DNA of 64,000 bases. It comes from Bacteroidia bacterium (GTDB lineage: Bacteria; Bacteroidota; Bacteroidia; J057). The notes below the pieces were generated by a model. That model was not told the origin of the DNA. It searched no databases and saw only the letters and a program-made list of their open reading frames with translations. The number at the start of each line of letters is the position of its first letter. The stretch's first letter is position 1. Location of the stretch: positions 5,766,001 to 5,830,000 of the forward strand of contig JAWPMV010000001.1 in assembly GCA_033391075.1 (NCBI GenBank), in the 5' to 3' direction. Shown here one piece after another: positions 2 through 32,831 of this stretch. Both the position numbers and the translations under genes were made by a program.

Positions 2-1258
2 TTGTATAAATTAGCCACCAGCTCTGAGTACTATTATGCAGGCGGTACGGAGAATCCCGTAGAAAACAATATCAGTTTTACCCTGGGCTTTGGAATCATC
101 CAACTTATCTGCATGGTCTATTGGGGAGTAAAGGCACATCTAACTGGCCATAAAACAGCAAAGTATTTACTTATAGGATTGGCAGTTATGCTCTTTGGAA
201 TAGGTTTTCCTCTCCTCAGCCCTATTTTGAAAACAAACTGGGTGAGTTTTGACAATGCCATCCTTTCCAGCCAGGTAAGCATCATAGCCCTCCTCGCTTT
301 CTTTGGATTAGCCATTGGACAGCAAAGACGAGAACTGGAAGAAGAAAAAAGAGCTGCTTTGGAGGAAAAGCTGGATCTCCAGGAAAAAATCAATGCCGCA
401 TCTGCCAAATTTGTTCCCTTCGATTTTATCCGCTCTTTGGGAAAGGAAAATATCCTGGATGTGCAGCTGGGTGATGCCACTGAAAAAGAAGTAACCGTCT
501 TTTTCTCTGATATTAGGAATTATACTACGATGGTTGAAGAGTTGAGTCCAGAGGAAAATTTCCGTTTTATCAATGACTTTCACCGAACCATAGGCCCAAG
601 CATCACAGAGCATAAGGGTTTCGTAAATCAATACCTGGGAGATGGGATCATGGCGATCTTTCTCCAGTCTCAGGATCACGCCCTTCAGGCTGCGATAGAC
701 ATTCAAACACGTATCCGTACATATAAACCTTTGCTGCCCGGAGAAAATGGTAACCTGATCCGTATGGGAATGGGTCTCCATGCAGGAAGTCTGATGATGG
801 GGATTATTGGGGACGATAAACGCACAGATGCAGCTACCGTTTCAGATACTGTAAATACAGCCTCTCGCATGGAAGGGCTTACCAAGTATTATGGAGCTTC
901 TATCCTGCTTTCCGGGGAAGTAAAAACAAAACTTTCAGAAGAAGATAGTTATGCCCTCAGGTATTTGGGGAAAGTTCAGGTAAAAGGGAAGCAGAATTTG
1001 GTTGAAGTATTTGAATGTTTGAATGGAAGGAAGCCGGAAGAAGGGGAAAAATTGATGGAAAGCCTTGCAGAATTTCAGGAAGCGGTTAACAGTTATTTTG
1101 CCAAAGATTTTAAAGCTGCCATTGACTTATTTGAAAGTGTTCTCAGTAAAAATCCACAGGATACAGCAAGCCGTATTTATCTGGAAAAAGCCCAACAAAA
1201 TTTACAAAGCGGAATCGCTGATGATTGGGATGGTGTGCTGACAATGAAAGAAAAATAG
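2..1258 (+). CDS. Membrane-anchored class III adenylate/guanylate cyclase (5' truncated)
   Basis: This is the 3' part of a signalling cyclase; the reading frame is open to the window edge and the first readable codon is a TTG that is probably internal. Residues 28-105 hold about three membrane segments, most likely the end of a 7TMR-DISM type sensor. A short charged coiled coil (about 107-132) leads into a class III cyclase domain (about 137-335). Both metal-binding aspartates are visible, in FFSDIRNYT (D170) and QYLGDG (D214). The position that is Lys in many adenylate cyclases is Gln (Q210), so the substrate cannot be assigned. The tail (about 350-415) looks like a TPR hairpin. The cyclase and tail closely resemble the C-terminus of the 1104-residue kinase at 22932-26246, even in the final DWxGV motif, so the two are paralogous modules. 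Family assignment is secure; substrate and sensor input are not. Confidence 0.85.
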   Translation: MYKLATSSEYYYAGGTENPVENNISFTLGFGIIQLICMVYWGVKAHLTGHKTAKYLLIGLAVMLFGIGFPLLSPILKTNWVSFDNAILSSQVSIIALLAFFGLAIGQQRRELEEEKRAALEEKLDLQEKINAASAKFVPFDFIRSLGKENILDVQLGDATEKEVTVFFSDIRNYTTMVEELSPEENFRFINDFHRTIGPSITEHKGFVNQYLGDGIMAIFLQSQDHALQAAIDIQTRIRTYKPLLPGENGNLIRMGMGLHAGSLMMGIIGDDKRTDAATVSDTVNTASRMEGLTKYYGASILLSGEVKTKLSEEDSYALRYLGKVQVKGKQNLVEVFECLNGRKPEEGEKLMESLAEFQEAVNSYFAKDFKAAIDLFESVLSKNPQDTASRIYLEKAQQNLQSGIADDWDGVLTMKEK

Positions 1259-22900: not shown

Positions 22901-22932
22901 GAACCCGGGGGGGACAATTGCCCTCTGGGTTC
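22901..22932. terminator. Hairpin between convergent PEBP and hybrid-kinase genes
   Basis: GAACCC (22901-22906) pairs with GGGTTC (22927-22932), and the stem continues inward through G/C-rich bases around ACAATT. It abuts the stop codon of the minus-strand kinase gene. TATTT follows on the plus strand; the minus side lacks a T-run, so it mainly serves the PEBP gene. Confidence 0.6.
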
Positions 22933-25900
22933 TATTTGCTTTGCATCATCTCTACCCCTGTCCAATCCTCCGGAACGCCCTTTCCTCTATGTTCAGTAGC
23001 CTTCAATAGATACATAGATGCAGGCTTATCGTCGGGGTTAAAGCGGATAATTTCTGCAAATGACCTCAGGGCCGTATCAAAATCTTTTTCAAAGTAGGCA
23101 GTAAGTGCTTTTTCAAAAATATCCTGGGTACTCTCCTTTTTCTGTCGAATATCTTCAGGATCACCATCGAAACACTCAAACAGTCCGATTGCCTTGTTCT
23201 TGCCTTTGGGCATAACTTTGCCTAAAAACCGGATTTTATGCCCATGATCTTTGCCAAGCTGGGCACAGGTGTATTCGCTCAACAAAATATTGACTCCAAA
23301 ATGCTTGGTCAGGCCTTCGATCCGAGCAGCTGTATTCACAGTATCTGAAATTGTAGCGGGTTCCATGCGTTCTTTATCTCCAATTATCCCCATGATCAGT
23401 TTACCCGTATGTAATCCCATTCCTACCCTCACAGCTATCTTTCCTTTCTTTTCCCTTTCAATATTATAAGTACTTAAGGTTTTTTGCATTTCCACCGAAG
23501 CCCCCAAAGCATCTCTTCCATTTCCTAAAAAAATCGCCATAATACCATCGCCCAGATATTGATGAACAAAGCCATTATGTTGATTGATAATTGGTCCCAT
23601 CCGACTGGAATAGGCATTTACAAATCGGAAATTCTGATCAGGGCTCATACTTTCAGACAGACTGGTATAAGCACGTATATCTGAGAAAAATACGGTCACC
23701 TCTCTTTCTACATTATCTCCCAGGCTGAGTTCAAGAATACTCTCATATCCCAGGGTTTGCAAGAAGGAGCGGGGAACGAATTTACTTGTAGCTGAGTTGA
23801 TATTGTGGAGATTGAGCTGGGTAGTAGTTCGGGCTAAAAATTCACTTCTGGTAAAAGGTTTTGATATATAATCATTTCCTCCCAGGCTCAAGCCCTGTAC
23901 CAGATCATTGACCTGATTTTTTGCCGTAATAAAGATGACAGGCAACTCACTAACCAAATACTTCTCTCGGATCATCTGACAAACTTCATATCCAGACATT
24001 CGAGGCATCATGACATCCAGCAAAACCAGATCATAACTCTCCTCTGATTCGATGAGTTGGAGGGCTTCCGGTCCATTCATAGCAGAATCTAGCTGATAGT
24101 TTTTGTGGATCAAATGATTGCGCAATACCTGATGATTGATCGGCTCATCATCAACAATCAGAATACGAAAGACCGAATTCCCATGGGTCGACAATATCTC
24201 TTCCGGTTGTTTTACCAGAACTTCAGTTGTCGCACTTATACTGGATAATTCCTGAAAGCTGGGGACAAATTCGAGTGGGACGGCCTTTTGACTGCTGATC
24301 GGTAGGGTAAAGAAAAAAGTCGACCCTTTTCCCAGAGAAGAACGGACCCACATCTCTCCTGCATGAAGTTCCACCAATTTTTTACTAATACTAAGCCCCA
24401 AACCTGTCCCGGCAAATTTTCGCGAAATTGAACCATCCGCCTGCTCAAATTCGTCGAATATAAGTTCTCGTTTATCTTCAGGTATGCCAATTCCTGTATC
24501 TTCAACCCGAACCTCCAGCATCTCATTTTTCTCTACCGCGTGGATGGATACGGAGCCTTTTTCGGTGAACTTGATCGCATTTCCGATAAGGTTATGAAAA
24601 ATTTGCTGAATACGCCCTTCATCTCCTTCCACAGCTGGCAAATGCCGGGGAACACGATTTTCCAGCTCTACTTCCTTTCCTTTCAATAGGGGTTGATGGA
24701 TTTTAATCACAACATCCGTAATGCTATAAAGATCCAGTGCCTTCTTCTGTACCTCAAGTTGCTTATTCTTAATCCGTGAAAAATCCAGGAGATCCCCCAC
24801 CAGACTATTTAAGCGATGGGAGGAGGAAACCACCATTTGCAGGTTTTCTCTGATAAAATCCTCTTTGAAATTATTTAGGCCATCCAATAGAGATTCTGTG
24901 ATCCCAATAATTCCATTTAAAGGGGTCTTCAATTCATGGGAGGTATTAGCAAGGAACTGATCCTTGAGTTTATCCATGTGCCTTAATTGTTCATTTGCTT
25001 TCTCCTGAACTTCCAGTTGCATTTTTCGGTTCAGGTCCTGCCGATAGCCAAGCCCCAGAGAAAAGGTCAATACTTCTGCGATAAAGAAAGATTCAATCAC
25101 CCCCAGATAATCCCGGATATTAAACAGCAGATCAGCTGACAGGCCTACGATTCCGGCGAGCACCAGAAAAAGGGTTCCAAAAATCATGATCTGTGCCAGC
25201 CGTTCTTTCGTCCGGAAAAAACGAAGAGATACAACCAACAAAAAGAAGATAGAAGCTCCCACCGAAACATTGATGAGAAAATCTATATAAGGTTCATGAA
25301 AGGCAAAAAAGAGGATACTCAATTCAATCCCCATTACCAGCAAGATAATCTGTTGCCAGGCCAAACAAACTCGATCCCATTTAGGGATGAGGCTCTTTGT
25401 ATCTACAAAAATGCGAACGAATTGAAAATAGGTAACCACCAAGGCATTGATTGACAGAATCCAGACCAGTAGTTGTAATTGGGGAAATTGATGGAAGAAT
25501 AATTCGAAAAAAAGTCCACTGCGATAGAGGAAATAGATGGAGGAAGAAAAAAGGAATAATACGTAGATGAGATAGGATCTGTCTCGACTTCCTACAAATA
25601 CAAGGGCTGAGAAAAATATCATGATCCAGAGCATTCCCTGAAAAACTCCCTGACCAATTCTGAAAGCTACTTCTGAACGTTGAACACTGTCTTCACTTTG
25701 CAAATAAATGTCAAAAAAGGGGGAAAGCTTATTGATTTGTCTAACCTTGATATAAACTAGCAGCTTCTCACCGGGAGCAAATTCCAATTTGAAATGATTG
25801 GCAATAGTGCTTCTATGTGACTTCTGATTGTATGGCAGGAATCTCCCACTTTTAAGGGAAGCAACTATTTCGCCCTCTTTTTCGAGCAGGAGCTCAACAA

Positions 25901-26246
25901 AACTATTCCCGCTCAGCACTTCTTCTCCATCCGGGAGAAGAATAAGGCTTTGAGCAGCATGGAAATCATTTTGGAGGCTCAACTTTGCCCAATAAGAAAC
26001 TTCTTCATTGAGCTTGAATCCTAATTCTGATAGGTGAATCCAGGATGTTGAATCTTCCTGCAGGGAAGCGATTTCACTTTCCTCCGCAGCACTCTGGTTT
26101 ATATAGAGATATGAATTGAGGGAAATTGCTGAAGAGATTGAATCAAAAGAAAAAGTCTGGATCTCCTGTGCCGGGGAAATGGAAGAGCAAAACAGCATGC
26201 ATAAGCAAGCTATTGCTAGAATTCTTAGGGCTTTCAAAACATTCAT
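22932..26246 (-). CDS. Hybrid histidine kinase / receiver / class III cyclase with 7TMR-DISM sensor
   Basis: An 1104-residue multidomain signalling protein. In order: signal peptide (1-27), 7TMR-DISMED2-like periplasmic domain (about 35-185), 7TM region (about 198-400), coiled coil, HisKA with His437 in TSHELKTPLNG, HATPase_c with N556 (NAIKF) and G-boxes (DTGIGIP, GTGLGLS), receiver with phospho-acceptor D744 (VLLDVMMPRMSG), class III cyclase (about 820-1025; metal aspartates D856 and D900), and a TPR-like tail. It would couple phosphorelay to cyclic-nucleotide synthesis in one chain. The residue usually Lys in adenylate cyclases is Gln896, as in the paralogue at 2-1258. The gene is monocistronic and convergent with the PEBP gene. 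Domains are certain; the nucleotide made is not. Confidence 0.9.
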   Translation of the reverse strand: MNVLKALRILAIACLCMLFCSSISPAQEIQTFSFDSISSAISLNSYLYINQSAAEESEIASLQEDSTSWIHLSELGFKLNEEVSYWAKLSLQNDFHAAQSLILLPDGEEVLSGNSFVELLLEKEGEIVASLKSGRFLPYNQKSHRSTIANHFKLEFAPGEKLLVYIKVRQINKLSPFFDIYLQSEDSVQRSEVAFRIGQGVFQGMLWIMIFFSALVFVGSRDRSYLIYVLFLFSSSIYFLYRSGLFFELFFHQFPQLQLLVWILSINALVVTYFQFVRIFVDTKSLIPKWDRVCLAWQQIILLVMGIELSILFFAFHEPYIDFLINVSVGASIFFLLVVSLRFFRTKERLAQIMIFGTLFLVLAGIVGLSADLLFNIRDYLGVIESFFIAEVLTFSLGLGYRQDLNRKMQLEVQEKANEQLRHMDKLKDQFLANTSHELKTPLNGIIGITESLLDGLNNFKEDFIRENLQMVVSSSHRLNSLVGDLLDFSRIKNKQLEVQKKALDLYSITDVVIKIHQPLLKGKEVELENRVPRHLPAVEGDEGRIQQIFHNLIGNAIKFTEKGSVSIHAVEKNEMLEVRVEDTGIGIPEDKRELIFDEFEQADGSISRKFAGTGLGLSISKKLVELHAGEMWVRSSLGKGSTFFFTLPISSQKAVPLEFVPSFQELSSISATTEVLVKQPEEILSTHGNSVFRILIVDDEPINHQVLRNHLIHKNYQLDSAMNGPEALQLIESEESYDLVLLDVMMPRMSGYEVCQMIREKYLVSELPVIFITAKNQVNDLVQGLSLGGNDYISKPFTRSEFLARTTTQLNLHNINSATSKFVPRSFLQTLGYESILELSLGDNVEREVTVFFSDIRAYTSLSESMSPDQNFRFVNAYSSRMGPIINQHNGFVHQYLGDGIMAIFLGNGRDALGASVEMQKTLSTYNIEREKKGKIAVRVGMGLHTGKLIMGIIGDKERMEPATISDTVNTAARIEGLTKHFGVNILLSEYTCAQLGKDHGHKIRFLGKVMPKGKNKAIGLFECFDGDPEDIRQKKESTQDIFEKALTAYFEKDFDTALRSFAEIIRFNPDDKPASMYLLKATEHRGKGVPEDWTGVEMMQSK

Positions 26247-30288: not shown

Positions 30289-30411
30289 GAGAATTTTATT
30301 TTTTGGTGAATACTTACCCAAGGATAAGGAAGGGCGGAAGATTTGTTGCAGAGAAACATGCCAATGGCACGGAGGACTTTTGAATGGCACGGCTTAGAGG
30401 CTAAGCTTGCC

Positions 30412-30419
30412 TATCTTTG
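30412..30419 (+). promoter_or_regulatory. Candidate -7 element for the LytS-LytTR operon
   Basis: TATCTTTG matches TAnnTTTG exactly and lies only 7 bp before the chosen ATG at 30427, implying a very short leader or leaderless mRNA. No well-spaced -33 element is evident. Confidence 0.35.
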
Positions 30420-30426
30420 TTATGTT

Positions 30427-32127
30427 ATGAAAAATATACTGCTTCTCTGCCTCTTTCTTTTTAGCCTGAATCCAGCTTCAGCCTATGATGGGATTATATA
30501 TCCGGATAAACGGGTGCAGATGCAAGGAGACAATCCTTTGTGGGCAAGTAAGGACTTGAATGACGAAAGTTGGGTGGATCAGGATATCGATGGCTACGGA
30601 TATTTTTGGGTGCGCTTCTCCTTCGAGGTCGATGAGGAGATTTTTGAATTGAAACATCCCGGCCTCCACATCATCAGTTTGGGTTCTTATGAGGTCTATT
30701 GGGATGGAGTCAAGATAGGCGAAAATGGGAAAGTGGGCGAAACGGTGGAAGAAGAAGTTCCGGGCAATTTTATGAGCCAGGTTTTGATTCCCGACTCATT
30801 GGCAACAATAGGTTCGCACATTGTAGCCTTCAGGGTTAGCAATGTGCATATGCCCACCTACATCCTGGGAAGCTGGAATGCCTGTTATATAGAAGAGTAT
30901 AAACAAACGGTTGAGGAATACCTGCGCGTAACCGCCTTTATTTTCATTCTTGCAGGAATCTATTTGATGGCAGGAACCTACTATCTCTTTCTGTTTATCA
31001 TGAGAAACAGAGAGAAAGAGGAACTTATATTTAGTCTTCTTTGTTTTCTCTTCTTTGGGCTGATATTCGCAGAGTATTTCAAATTTCTTTACCTCTATCC
31101 CTACCCCTTCCATATCAAACGATTGGGAGTGATTTATTTTCTCACCCTCTTTATTTCTTTTCTCACTCCTTACTTCTTCGTCAATTTCTTTGAGCTCCCA
31201 AAAGCACTCCTGATCAATCTCACAATCCTGGTCTTGCTCATTGCTTCCAGCTTCATTTTAACAGTTGGAACTGACCCAGCTGCCCGAGTCATGTCTTTGG
31301 TTGGCCTGATTTCTTCCTTGGGAATTGCTTTTTATGCGGTCTATAAAAAGAAGCAACATGCCTGGGTGGTATTTAGCGCCTTGAGTATATCGGGGATGGT
31401 GATTCTTTTTTACCAACTAAGCTTTCGATTTTTGCTGTATGCATATGACGTAACCCTATTCATTAGCTTTAGCATACTTGTCCTCTCTATGATGTATGTT
31501 CTGGCTCGGCGTGCACGCGACCAGAAAGAAGCCTATGAAGCTTCAGTCATCCTTTCTTCCCGTCTCCAAAATGAGCTACTTAAAAAGAATATTCAGCCCC
31601 ATTTCATCATGAATACCCTTACTTCTTTGATGGAGTGGATAGAAGAAGCTCCGGGCGAAAGCATTCAATTTATTGAGGCTTTATCTGGAGAGTTTGAAAT
31701 CATGAGTGAGATAGCGGAAGAAAAACTCATTCCGATCATGCAGGAAATCGACCTCTGTAAATACCATATTGAGATCATGCGTTTCCGAAAGGAATTGAAC
31801 TATATTTTTATACAGGAAAACATTGATCCGGAGGAGAAAATTCCCCCTGCCATTTTTCACACCCTGATCGAAAATGCCATCACACATAGTTATCCGGATA
31901 AAGAAAATCGCATCAAAATTTTCTTGCGATTTTTCCGTGTAGAAGATCATCGCTATTACGAATTGGAAGTGGTTGCTCGAAATAAGAAAACAGAAAAGAA
32001 AGAAGAAGGTACCGGTTTCAAATACATCCGTTCTCGACTTAGCGAAAGCTATGGAGAACAGTGGACCCTCGACAGTAGTCCTACGGAAAGTGGCTGGATC
32101 ACGCGCATCAAATTATTAAACGCATAG
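30427..32127 (+). CDS. LytS-type sensor histidine kinase with 7TMR-DISM-like sensor
   Basis: I start at the ATG at 30427, where the signal peptide begins (MKNILLLCLFLFSLNPASA), giving 566 residues. A beta-rich periplasmic domain (about 20-160) that resembles a jelly-roll DISM sensor is followed by seven membrane segments (about 165-365). The cytoplasmic part has the His_kinase (PF06580) signature with the phosphorylated His in NIQPHFIMNTL, and an HATPase-like region with TLIENAITHSYP and GTGFKYIRSRL. The response-regulator gene follows 2 bp downstream, so the two form one operon. The stimulus is unknown. Confidence 0.9.
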   Translation: MKNILLLCLFLFSLNPASAYDGIIYPDKRVQMQGDNPLWASKDLNDESWVDQDIDGYGYFWVRFSFEVDEEIFELKHPGLHIISLGSYEVYWDGVKIGENGKVGETVEEEVPGNFMSQVLIPDSLATIGSHIVAFRVSNVHMPTYILGSWNACYIEEYKQTVEEYLRVTAFIFILAGIYLMAGTYYLFLFIMRNREKEELIFSLLCFLFFGLIFAEYFKFLYLYPYPFHIKRLGVIYFLTLFISFLTPYFFVNFFELPKALLINLTILVLLIASSFILTVGTDPAARVMSLVGLISSLGIAFYAVYKKKQHAWVVFSALSISGMVILFYQLSFRFLLYAYDVTLFISFSILVLSMMYVLARRARDQKEAYEASVILSSRLQNELLKKNIQPHFIMNTLTSLMEWIEEAPGESIQFIEALSGEFEIMSEIAEEKLIPIMQEIDLCKYHIEIMRFRKELNYIFIQENIDPEEKIPPAIFHTLIENAITHSYPDKENRIKIFLRFFRVEDHRYYELEVVARNKKTEKKEEGTGFKYIRSRLSESYGEQWTLDSSPTESGWITRIKLLNA

Positions 32128-32129
32128 CT

Positions 32130-32831
32130 ATGCACATCCTGATAGTTGAAGACGAACCAATCATCGCTCGCAGGATTTCTCGTATCCTCCGAGAACAATT
32201 GGCCGAAAGCCCAAAGCAGATAGCCGTACGCCATCACCTGGAAGATGCGCAGGAGTATATAGCCGAAAACGAGATTGATCTCCTCTTTCTCGACCTCAAT
32301 TTGCAAGGAGATAATGGCTTCGAAATGTTGGAATCGGTTTCCGCTGCCTCTTTCCATACCATCATCGTTTCCGCCAATAAAGATCAGGCCCTCAAAGCAT
32401 TTGAATATGGGGTATTGGACTTTGTGGGAAAACCCTTCAATGAAGAGAGGTTGGCCAAGGCCTTGCGCAGGCTGCGAGGTACAGAAAGTGTAGATCAGCA
32501 AGGACGTAAATATCTATCCATCCAAAAAAGAGGGCGCCATGTCCTTAGAGAAATTGAGCAATTGATCTATGTGAAAGGAGCCGGCATCTATGCAGAACTT
32601 TTTTTCGAGGACGAAAGCAAGGAAATCCACAATAAAAATCTGGACAAACTTTCGCAGCTCCTCCCTCCCCATTTTGAGCGCATCCACAAATCCTATATCG
32701 TCAACAGCCAAAAAATCAAAAGTCTGAAGGCAGAAGCAGGCGGAAAATATACTCTGGAAATGGAAGGGGGAGCCTTGCTTCCGGTAAGTCGGAGTCGATA
32801 TAAAGACTTGAAGGAAAAGTGGGCGATATAA
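32130..32831 (+). CDS. LytTR-family response regulator
   Basis: A 233-residue regulator, cognate partner of the preceding LytS kinase (2-bp spacing). The receiver domain (1-118) has the acidic pocket (VEDEP), the phospho-acceptor D55 in LLFLDLNLQGDNG, and K105 in VGKPFNEE. The C-terminal LytTR DNA-binding domain (about 135-233) contains IQKRGRHVLREIEQLIYVKGAG and the FERIHKSYIVN motif typical of the family. Targets are not visible in the window. Confidence 0.95.
   Translation: MHILIVEDEPIIARRISRILREQLAESPKQIAVRHHLEDAQEYIAENEIDLLFLDLNLQGDNGFEMLESVSAASFHTIIVSANKDQALKAFEYGVLDFVGKPFNEERLAKALRRLRGTESVDQQGRKYLSIQKRGRHVLREIEQLIYVKGAGIYAELFFEDESKEIHNKNLDKLSQLLPPHFERIHKSYIVNSQKIKSLKAEAGGKYTLEMEGGALLPVSRSRYKDLKEKWAI

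Follow-up and report, generated by a model that had tools for sequence, protein, structure and literature searches.

We analyzed a 64,000-nucleotide stretch of the genome of a Bacteroidia bacterium (Bacteroidota; GTDB lineage J057; GenBank assembly GCA_033391075.1, contig JAWPMV010000001.1, positions 5,766,001 to 5,830,000 of the forward strand), hereafter called the window, and in it a single minus-strand gene whose product joins a seven-transmembrane sensor, a hybrid histidine kinase, and a class III nucleotidyl cyclase. The gene occupies an unbroken frame from ATG to stop at positions 22932 to 26246 and encodes 1,104 amino acids (aa). Five domains (7TMR-DISM_7TM, HisKA, HATPase_c, Response_reg, and Guanylate_cyc) were matched in this order by Pfam at E 0.01, all over cut-off, and their presence in one 1,104-aa frame rules out chance or a frame artefact. 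A preliminary description of the same DNA had recognized the 1,104-residue chain, its five domains in one frame, and residues H437, D744, D856, and D900, all of which we recovered at their places; absent from it were the strand, the alanine at the second substrate-specifying position (A964), and a second cyclase in the window (2-1258, plus strand).

Domain layout and conserved residues

The features of the gene are listed below. Alignment counts refer to 29 receiver-cyclase rows, labelled kinase-receiver-cyclase (27 of them show at least part of the kinase), and to a wider collection of 91 cyclase domains, from which 24 locus identifiers had been dropped because they duplicated, in shortened or full form, genes already represented.

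22932..26246, minus: complete gene, 1,104 aa plus stop
26169..26246, minus: probable signal peptide, residues about 1-26, read by eye from the sequence
25719..26018, minus: 7TMR-DISMED2 periplasmic sensor, residues 77-176 (Pfam PF07696, 21.9 bits against a cut-off of 22.0)
25041..25652, minus: 7TMR-DISM_7TM seven-transmembrane part, residues 199-402 (Pfam PF07695, E 1.2e-22)
24765..24965, minus: HisKA, residues 428-494 (Pfam PF00512, E 1.3e-17)
24936..24938, minus: phospho-acceptor H437 in HisKA (sequence and alignment)
24297..24626, minus: HATPase_c, residues 541-650, with N-box N556 (Pfam PF02518, E 4.8e-31)
23829..24164, minus: receiver (Response_reg), residues 695-806, with D699, D700, D744, T774, and K796 (Pfam PF00072, E 8.2e-30)
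23715..23828, minus: receiver-to-cyclase linker, residues 807-844, with FVPxxF from residue 823 (K796-to-D856 spacing and alignment)
23190..23705, minus: class III cyclase domain (Guanylate_cyc), residues 848-1019 (Pfam PF00211, E 5.1e-16, and fold match)
23679..23681, minus: metal ligand D856 (29/29 receiver-cyclase rows, 91/91 domains)
23559..23561, minus: Q896, first substrate-specifying position (alignment)
23547..23549, minus: metal ligand D900 (29/29 receiver-cyclase rows, 91/91 domains)
23355..23357, minus: A964, second substrate-specifying position (alignment)
23322..23336, minus: transition-state N971 to R975 (each in 29/29 rows)
22935..23156, minus: C-terminal helical tail, residues 1031-1104, with conserved W1096 near its end (model helices and alignment)

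The seven-transmembrane part scored 81.3 bits against a Pfam cut-off of 29, which places the protein among the 7TMR-DISM receptors. Behind it, a HisKA domain with its histidine, a HATPase domain, and a receiver with an acidic pocket and phospho-acceptor aspartate make up a hybrid histidine kinase, and two metal-binding aspartates, the transition-state asparagine and arginine, and the cyclase fold identify the last domain as a class III nucleotidyl cyclase. D699, D700, D744, K796, D856, D900, N971, and R975 are each present in all 29 receiver-cyclase rows, and T774 is replaced only once, by serine (28/29). Five rows (L018, L025, L027, L030, and L033) start inside the gene and lack the H437 position; of the 24 rows that reach this position, 23 have the histidine, all 25 rows with the N-box position have N556, and 26 of the 27 rows that cover the G(T/S)GLGL box show it. 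Across the 91 collected cyclase domains both metal aspartates and the arginine are invariant, and the asparagine is kept in 90.

An AlphaFold model of residues 805-1104, calculated as a monomer from a five-sequence input, reached a mean pLDDT of 82.6 and a pTM of 0.80, and its fold matched OaPAC (Z 25.2), CyaB (Z 23.8), Cya2 (Z 23.4), and CyaC (Z 23.3) among 50 listed entries with Z from 20.7 to 25.2. The active site of class III cyclases forms between two chains. When solved chains were searched with the single sequence, Cya2 (PDB 2w01) was best (E 2.8e-21); a five-sequence profile placed OaPAC first with Cya2 close behind. Beyond the catalytic domain, the model shows a tail of confident helices (pLDDT block means of 89-97 up to model residue 290, and 70 in the last ten residues), which ends near W1096, a tryptophan in 24 of the 29 receiver-cyclase rows and gapped in the remaining five. 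This tail had been called TPR-like, a term that is fair given the helices in the model and the TPR_2 matches in the tails of paralogue L042 and relatives L011 and L013 (16.9, 17.3, and 18.0 bits against a cut-off of 27). An identity as a TPR domain proper is unsupported and was rejected, as these scores lie under the cut-off and Pfam at E 0.01 found no TPR match in the 1,104-aa protein itself.

Relatives and the receiver-to-cyclase junction

The 9.49-Mb source genome holds 45 class III cyclase domains. A search with the full protein at E 1e-100 gave at least four matches in this genome (the protein itself counted), matches in nine of 12 other genomes of the family, and none among the best nine candidates scored in each of 67 genomes outside it. 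Relatives so found, some of them cut by contig ends, are 43-56% identical to the 1,104-aa protein over the matched parts. In a draw of 395 genomes across the phylum, own genome included, matches covering receiver and cyclase occurred, among the matches listed, in the own genome, G251, G210, G456, and G296, and a further match in G140 covers the receiver and most of the cyclase within a 480-aa protein that has no kinase. Per-genome numbers are lower bounds, as the best nine candidates (family search) or best four (phylum draw) were scored in each genome. Scanning contigs with a single cyclase sequence returned three relatives, including a Bacteroidetes (L034) and a Schleiferiaceae (L035) record.

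Domain assignments in these proteins come from Pfam, which was applied at E 0.01 to 17 of the genome's 45 cyclase proteins and at E 0.0001 to further relatives. The constant part is HisKA, HATPase, receiver, linker, and cyclase, and the sensor varies. A 7TMR-DISM sensor precedes it in the 1,104-aa protein, L010-L013, and L119; a Reg_prop plus Y_Y_Y sensor in L038 (Y_Y_Y under cut-off), L046, L110, L111, and L114-L118; and a TPR sensor in L014. L029 has a Cache match under cut-off, and Pfam recognized no sensor in L040, L112, L113, and L019. Cyclases of the same group are also joined directly to 7TMR-DISM, with no kinase or receiver match (L039, L042, L043, L092, and L120:10744-12894), or to GAF (L044 and L123). 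One of the direct 7TMR-DISM fusions lies at the edge of the window:

2..1258, plus: C-terminal part of an 867-aa paralogue (L043), 7TMR-DISM directly fused to another cyclase from the Gln/Ala group, with neither kinase nor receiver found; left window edge

The own genome, and the window itself, offer a natural comparison: one sensor type joined to one cyclase group, in one protein through a kinase and receiver and in another directly. In genome G010, four cyclase genes in tandem combine a 7TMR-DISM, kinase, and receiver form, a member with tyrosine in place of the phospho-acceptor histidine, a kinase and receiver form without a recognized sensor, and a direct 7TMR-DISM fusion. Because one cyclase group joins 7TMR-DISM or GAF directly, or varied sensors behind a kinase and receiver, the receiver appears as one of several interchangeable inputs. 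Elsewhere in the window (30343-32831, plus strand), a LytS-like sensor kinase with several hydrophobic segments adjoins a response regulator whose output appears to be of LytTR type, as read by eye.

Where the receiver is present, its distance to the cyclase is fixed. K796 and D856 are separated by exactly 60 residues in all 29 rows (25 found by a first pattern and four by a looser one), and from FVPxxF onwards the sequence resembles the direct 7TMR-DISM and GAF fusions. This invariant spacing, kept despite identities of 43-56%, argues for a rigid coupling of receiver and cyclase, presumably through a helix that runs from the receiver into a common cyclase input element. Such an arrangement would agree with a report on S-helices in which receivers occur upstream of S-helices that join them to downstream catalytic domains (PMC1592074).

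Substrate-specifying positions and the product

The preliminary description had singled out Q896 as standing in the place of the substrate-specifying lysine. The residue is correct, and its reading as an oddity of the 1,104-aa protein was rejected, since glutamine is the usual residue in this conserved group (25 of the 29 receiver-cyclase rows, with three Lys and one His) and the commonest in the own genome (34 of 45 domains, with seven Glu and four Lys). Position 964 is more varied, with Ala in 15, Gly in seven, Thr in six, and Ser in one of the 29 rows. The three Lys rows (L111, L112, and L113) carry a Lys/Thr pair in the same kinase-receiver-cyclase order, showing that glutamine is no requirement of this architecture. 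The Q896/A964 pair is neither that of guanylyl cyclases (Glu, then Cys or Gly) nor the canonical adenylyl cyclase pair (Lys with Asp or Thr). With both specificity positions changed, motifs do not reveal the product, and because the canonical lysine is lacking in 41 of the 45 own-genome domains, motif-based prediction fails for most cyclases of this genome.

Trees were built from 58 of the 91 domains, after removal of 32 further paralogues from the own genome and of L100, which nearly duplicates L099. With the specificity columns included, 33 Gln/His rows formed one group (97/96) among Lys/Thr rows. Once these columns were removed, a 37-row group (90/95, bootstrap unsettled) took in L111, L112, and L113 and also L092, a direct 7TMR-DISM fusion with a Lys/Thr pair, and its inner order was largely unresolved. 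We do not claim a single origin of the Lys-to-Gln change, as the border to these four Lys/Thr rows is then unsettled. Between kinase-receiver and other forms, at least six and at least five changes were counted on the two trees, over the rows with a labelled architecture. The Lys/Thr, Gln/Thr, Gln/Ala, and Gln/Gly pairs found within one architecture would make up a natural set for the study of base selection in class III cyclases; examples are L112 (Lys/Thr), L110 (Gln/Thr), the 1,104-aa protein (Gln/Ala), and L121:11482-14796 (Gln/Gly).

The residues around the base site differ jointly between these groups. Among the 58 tree rows, the 16 with Lys have Asp (15) or Glu (1) at position 895 and Ala (15) or Ser (1) at 901, whereas the 35 with Gln never have Asp at 895, where 30 have Asn, and 33 have Gly at 901, related rows not being independent. 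Gly at 901 also occurs in both rows with a Glu/Gly pair, and in the alignment Cya2 has Glu and Gly at the specificity positions and Gly after the second metal aspartate; Cya2 is reported as a guanylyl cyclase (PMC4284465). In Ma1120, replacing the specifying Lys and Asp with guanylyl cyclase residues raised turnover of GTP and lowered that of ATP (PMC4215837). These observations favor the best placed of the alternatives to a cAMP-forming enzyme, namely that the same gated machine, whose pocket combines Q896 with a residue other than Asp at 895, Gly at 901, and a small residue at 964, has switched its base specificity towards that of Cya2 and makes mainly cGMP or another nucleotide other than cAMP, a reading which we hold to be possible and somewhat doubtful, given that Gln differs from the Glu of guanylyl cyclases. 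Precedents on the product point both ways, as Cya2 with its Glu/Gly pair makes cGMP and Rv0386, with a specificity pair of its own, is cited as an adenylyl cyclase in a paper title. If a single product has to be named, cAMP is the most probable, formed with loose selection of the base, and cGMP is a serious alternative.

A wider form of this idea can be put forward tentatively: within a lineage gated by phosphorylation, the changes Lys to Gln, Asp to Asn, Ala to Gly, and Thr to Ala or Gly may have occurred together, leaving hybrid kinases with exchangeable sensors that now make cGMP or a pyrimidine cyclic nucleotide. If so, these would be two-component systems that act through a diffusible messenger made by themselves in place of a transcription factor. 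In the Pycsar system, a pyrimidine cyclase with residues that select UTP or CTP (PMC11224242) is accompanied by an adjacent PycTM or PycTIR effector.

Several other cyclases of this genome stand out in their own right. A GAF-cyclase (L037, G000:C1:1511407) resembles Cya2 in its Glu/Gly pair, and a cNMP_binding match lies about 1 kb downstream of it; the two are a candidate cGMP pair. In L041 (G000:C3:146211), alone among the 45 own domains, Ile replaces the transition-state Asn. Ten proteins with an N-terminal cyclase are encoded within about 30 kb (L048 and L056, G000:C1:7295500-7328500), with Glu/Asn (five), Gln/His (four), and Gln/Lys (one) as specificity pairs; the one scanned with Pfam has TPR repeats behind the cyclase. 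A 455-aa protein (L047:2016-3380, G000:C1:5142411) joins a 2Fe-2S ferredoxin domain, a class III cyclase, and a C-terminal globin, and looks like a redox- or gas-sensing cyclase.

Proposed mechanism and comparison with known systems

We propose that the 1,104-aa protein is probably a membrane hybrid kinase that senses through its seven-transmembrane part and switches an active class III cyclase via its receiver, following a logic like that of CyaC. The 7TMR-DISM part would read a ligand or membrane signal and alter the activity of the HisKA/HATPase core, upon which H437 would be phosphorylated and hand its phosphate on to D744, either within the chain or in the receiver of the dimer partner. 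The phosphorylated receiver would then reorient the stretch running out of its last helix and into FVPxxFxxLG, closing the cyclase homodimer into its active form, and a diffusible 3',5'-cyclic nucleotide would be released, for which 33 cNMP_binding matches in the genome, 32 of them over cut-off, are possible receptors. The domains, the phosphotransfer, metal, and transition-state residues, the 60-residue spacing, and the exchange of upstream inputs among relatives are seen directly; activation as the direction of control, the helix, the closure of the dimer, and the cyclase activity are inferred. If the enzyme is active, His-Asp phosphotransfer and cyclic nucleotides would be joined in one membrane protein. 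The cyclase had earlier been placed under an internal phosphorelay, and of this claim the control by an in-chain kinase and receiver is backed by the conserved phosphotransfer residues, the 60-residue spacing, and the CyaC precedent. The term phosphorelay itself goes too far: Pfam at E 0.01 found neither an Hpt domain nor a second receiver in the chain (the rest of the genome was not searched for Hpt), so that a one-step transfer from His to Asp is the simplest scheme.

Several observations weigh against this proposal. The 7TMR-DISMED2 match lies 0.1 bit under the Pfam cut-off in the 1,104-aa protein, although it is over cut-off in relatives L010-L013. Two of the receiver-cyclase rows (L027 and L033) start at contig ends with no kinase visible, and three others (L018, L025, and L030) show only part of it. 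In one member of the tandem of four (L120:5599-7767), HATPase, receiver, and cyclase are kept while tyrosine replaces the phospho-acceptor histidine, and kinase activity is therefore not required in every member. Linker residues 805-822 (model residues 1-18) mostly have a pLDDT below 50, so that a continuous helix from receiver to cyclase is unsupported by the model. Both canonical specificity positions are changed (Q896 and A964), and no receptor gene adjoins the cyclase gene, the nearest cNMP_binding match being about 52 kb away.

Some of the same evidence bears on an alternative in which an active cyclase is either constitutive or under the sensor alone, and the receiver serves as an in-chain brake or takes up phosphate as a sink on behalf of a partner response regulator. 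Judging from its direct fusions to 7TMR-DISM and GAF, the cyclase module may be able to work without a receiver, and the tyrosine at the phospho-acceptor position in the tandem member would fit as well; an invariant spacing of 60 residues, however, suits a driving receiver better than a passive sink, and all 29 rows have an intact receiver pocket, which makes this alternative improbable. A pseudo-cyclase that binds nucleotide or only dimerizes, as a regulatory or scaffold module, is very improbable. The absence of the adenylyl cyclase residues (Lys, with Asp or Thr) from the two specificity positions would speak for it, but a dead enzyme would be expected to show a decayed metal site, and the metal aspartates and arginine (91/91) and the asparagine (90/91) are kept, all four of them in 29 of 29 receiver-cyclase rows.

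Among known systems, the proposed kinase-controlled cyclase is closest in logic to the cyanobacterial CyaC of Spirulina (Arthrospira) platensis and Anabaena, a soluble protein in which kinase and receiver precede a C-terminal class III cyclase. An additional receiver lies at the N terminus of CyaC, and its specificity pair is Lys/Thr. Kinase and receiver stand upstream of the cyclase in a single chain in both, and the catalytic domains superpose (Z 23.3), whereas the 1,104-aa protein has a seven-transmembrane sensor in place of a soluble one, a single receiver found and none at the N terminus, and a Gln/Ala pair. A 1999 paper on CyaC names activation by autophosphorylation and phosphotransfer in its title (reference list of PMC1183210). 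With 7TMR-DISM receptors the protein shares a 7TMR-DISM_7TM part upstream of catalytic signaling modules, and it differs in having kinase, receiver, and cyclase all behind one 7TMR-DISM; we know of no characterized 7TMR-DISM protein with these three modules.

The hybrid two-component systems (HTCS) of Bacteroidota have the order Reg_prop, Y_Y_Y, HisKA, HATPase, and receiver, with an AraC-type DNA-binding output at the C terminus. Paralogues and relatives of the 1,104-aa protein with Reg_prop and Y_Y_Y keep this HTCS order, and in them a nucleotide cyclase replaces the AraC-type output; the 1,104-aa protein has another sensor, and Pfam found neither Reg_prop nor AraC in it. Rv0386 of Mycobacterium tuberculosis presumably has Gln as its first and Asn as its second specificity residue, the latter in contrast to the Ala found here. 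It is fused to AAA-ATPase and HTH domains (PMC3938503). Cya2 (PDB 2w01) shares a small second specificity residue (Gly) and the Gly after the second metal aspartate, and differs in having Glu rather than Gln at the first position and, in the solved chain, neither kinase nor receiver. Among the openly licensed papers listed in our literature searches, none pointed by its title or the start of its abstract to a 7TMR-DISM or propeller version or to the Gln/Ala group. The fusion of kinase, receiver, and cyclase as such is already known from CyaC.

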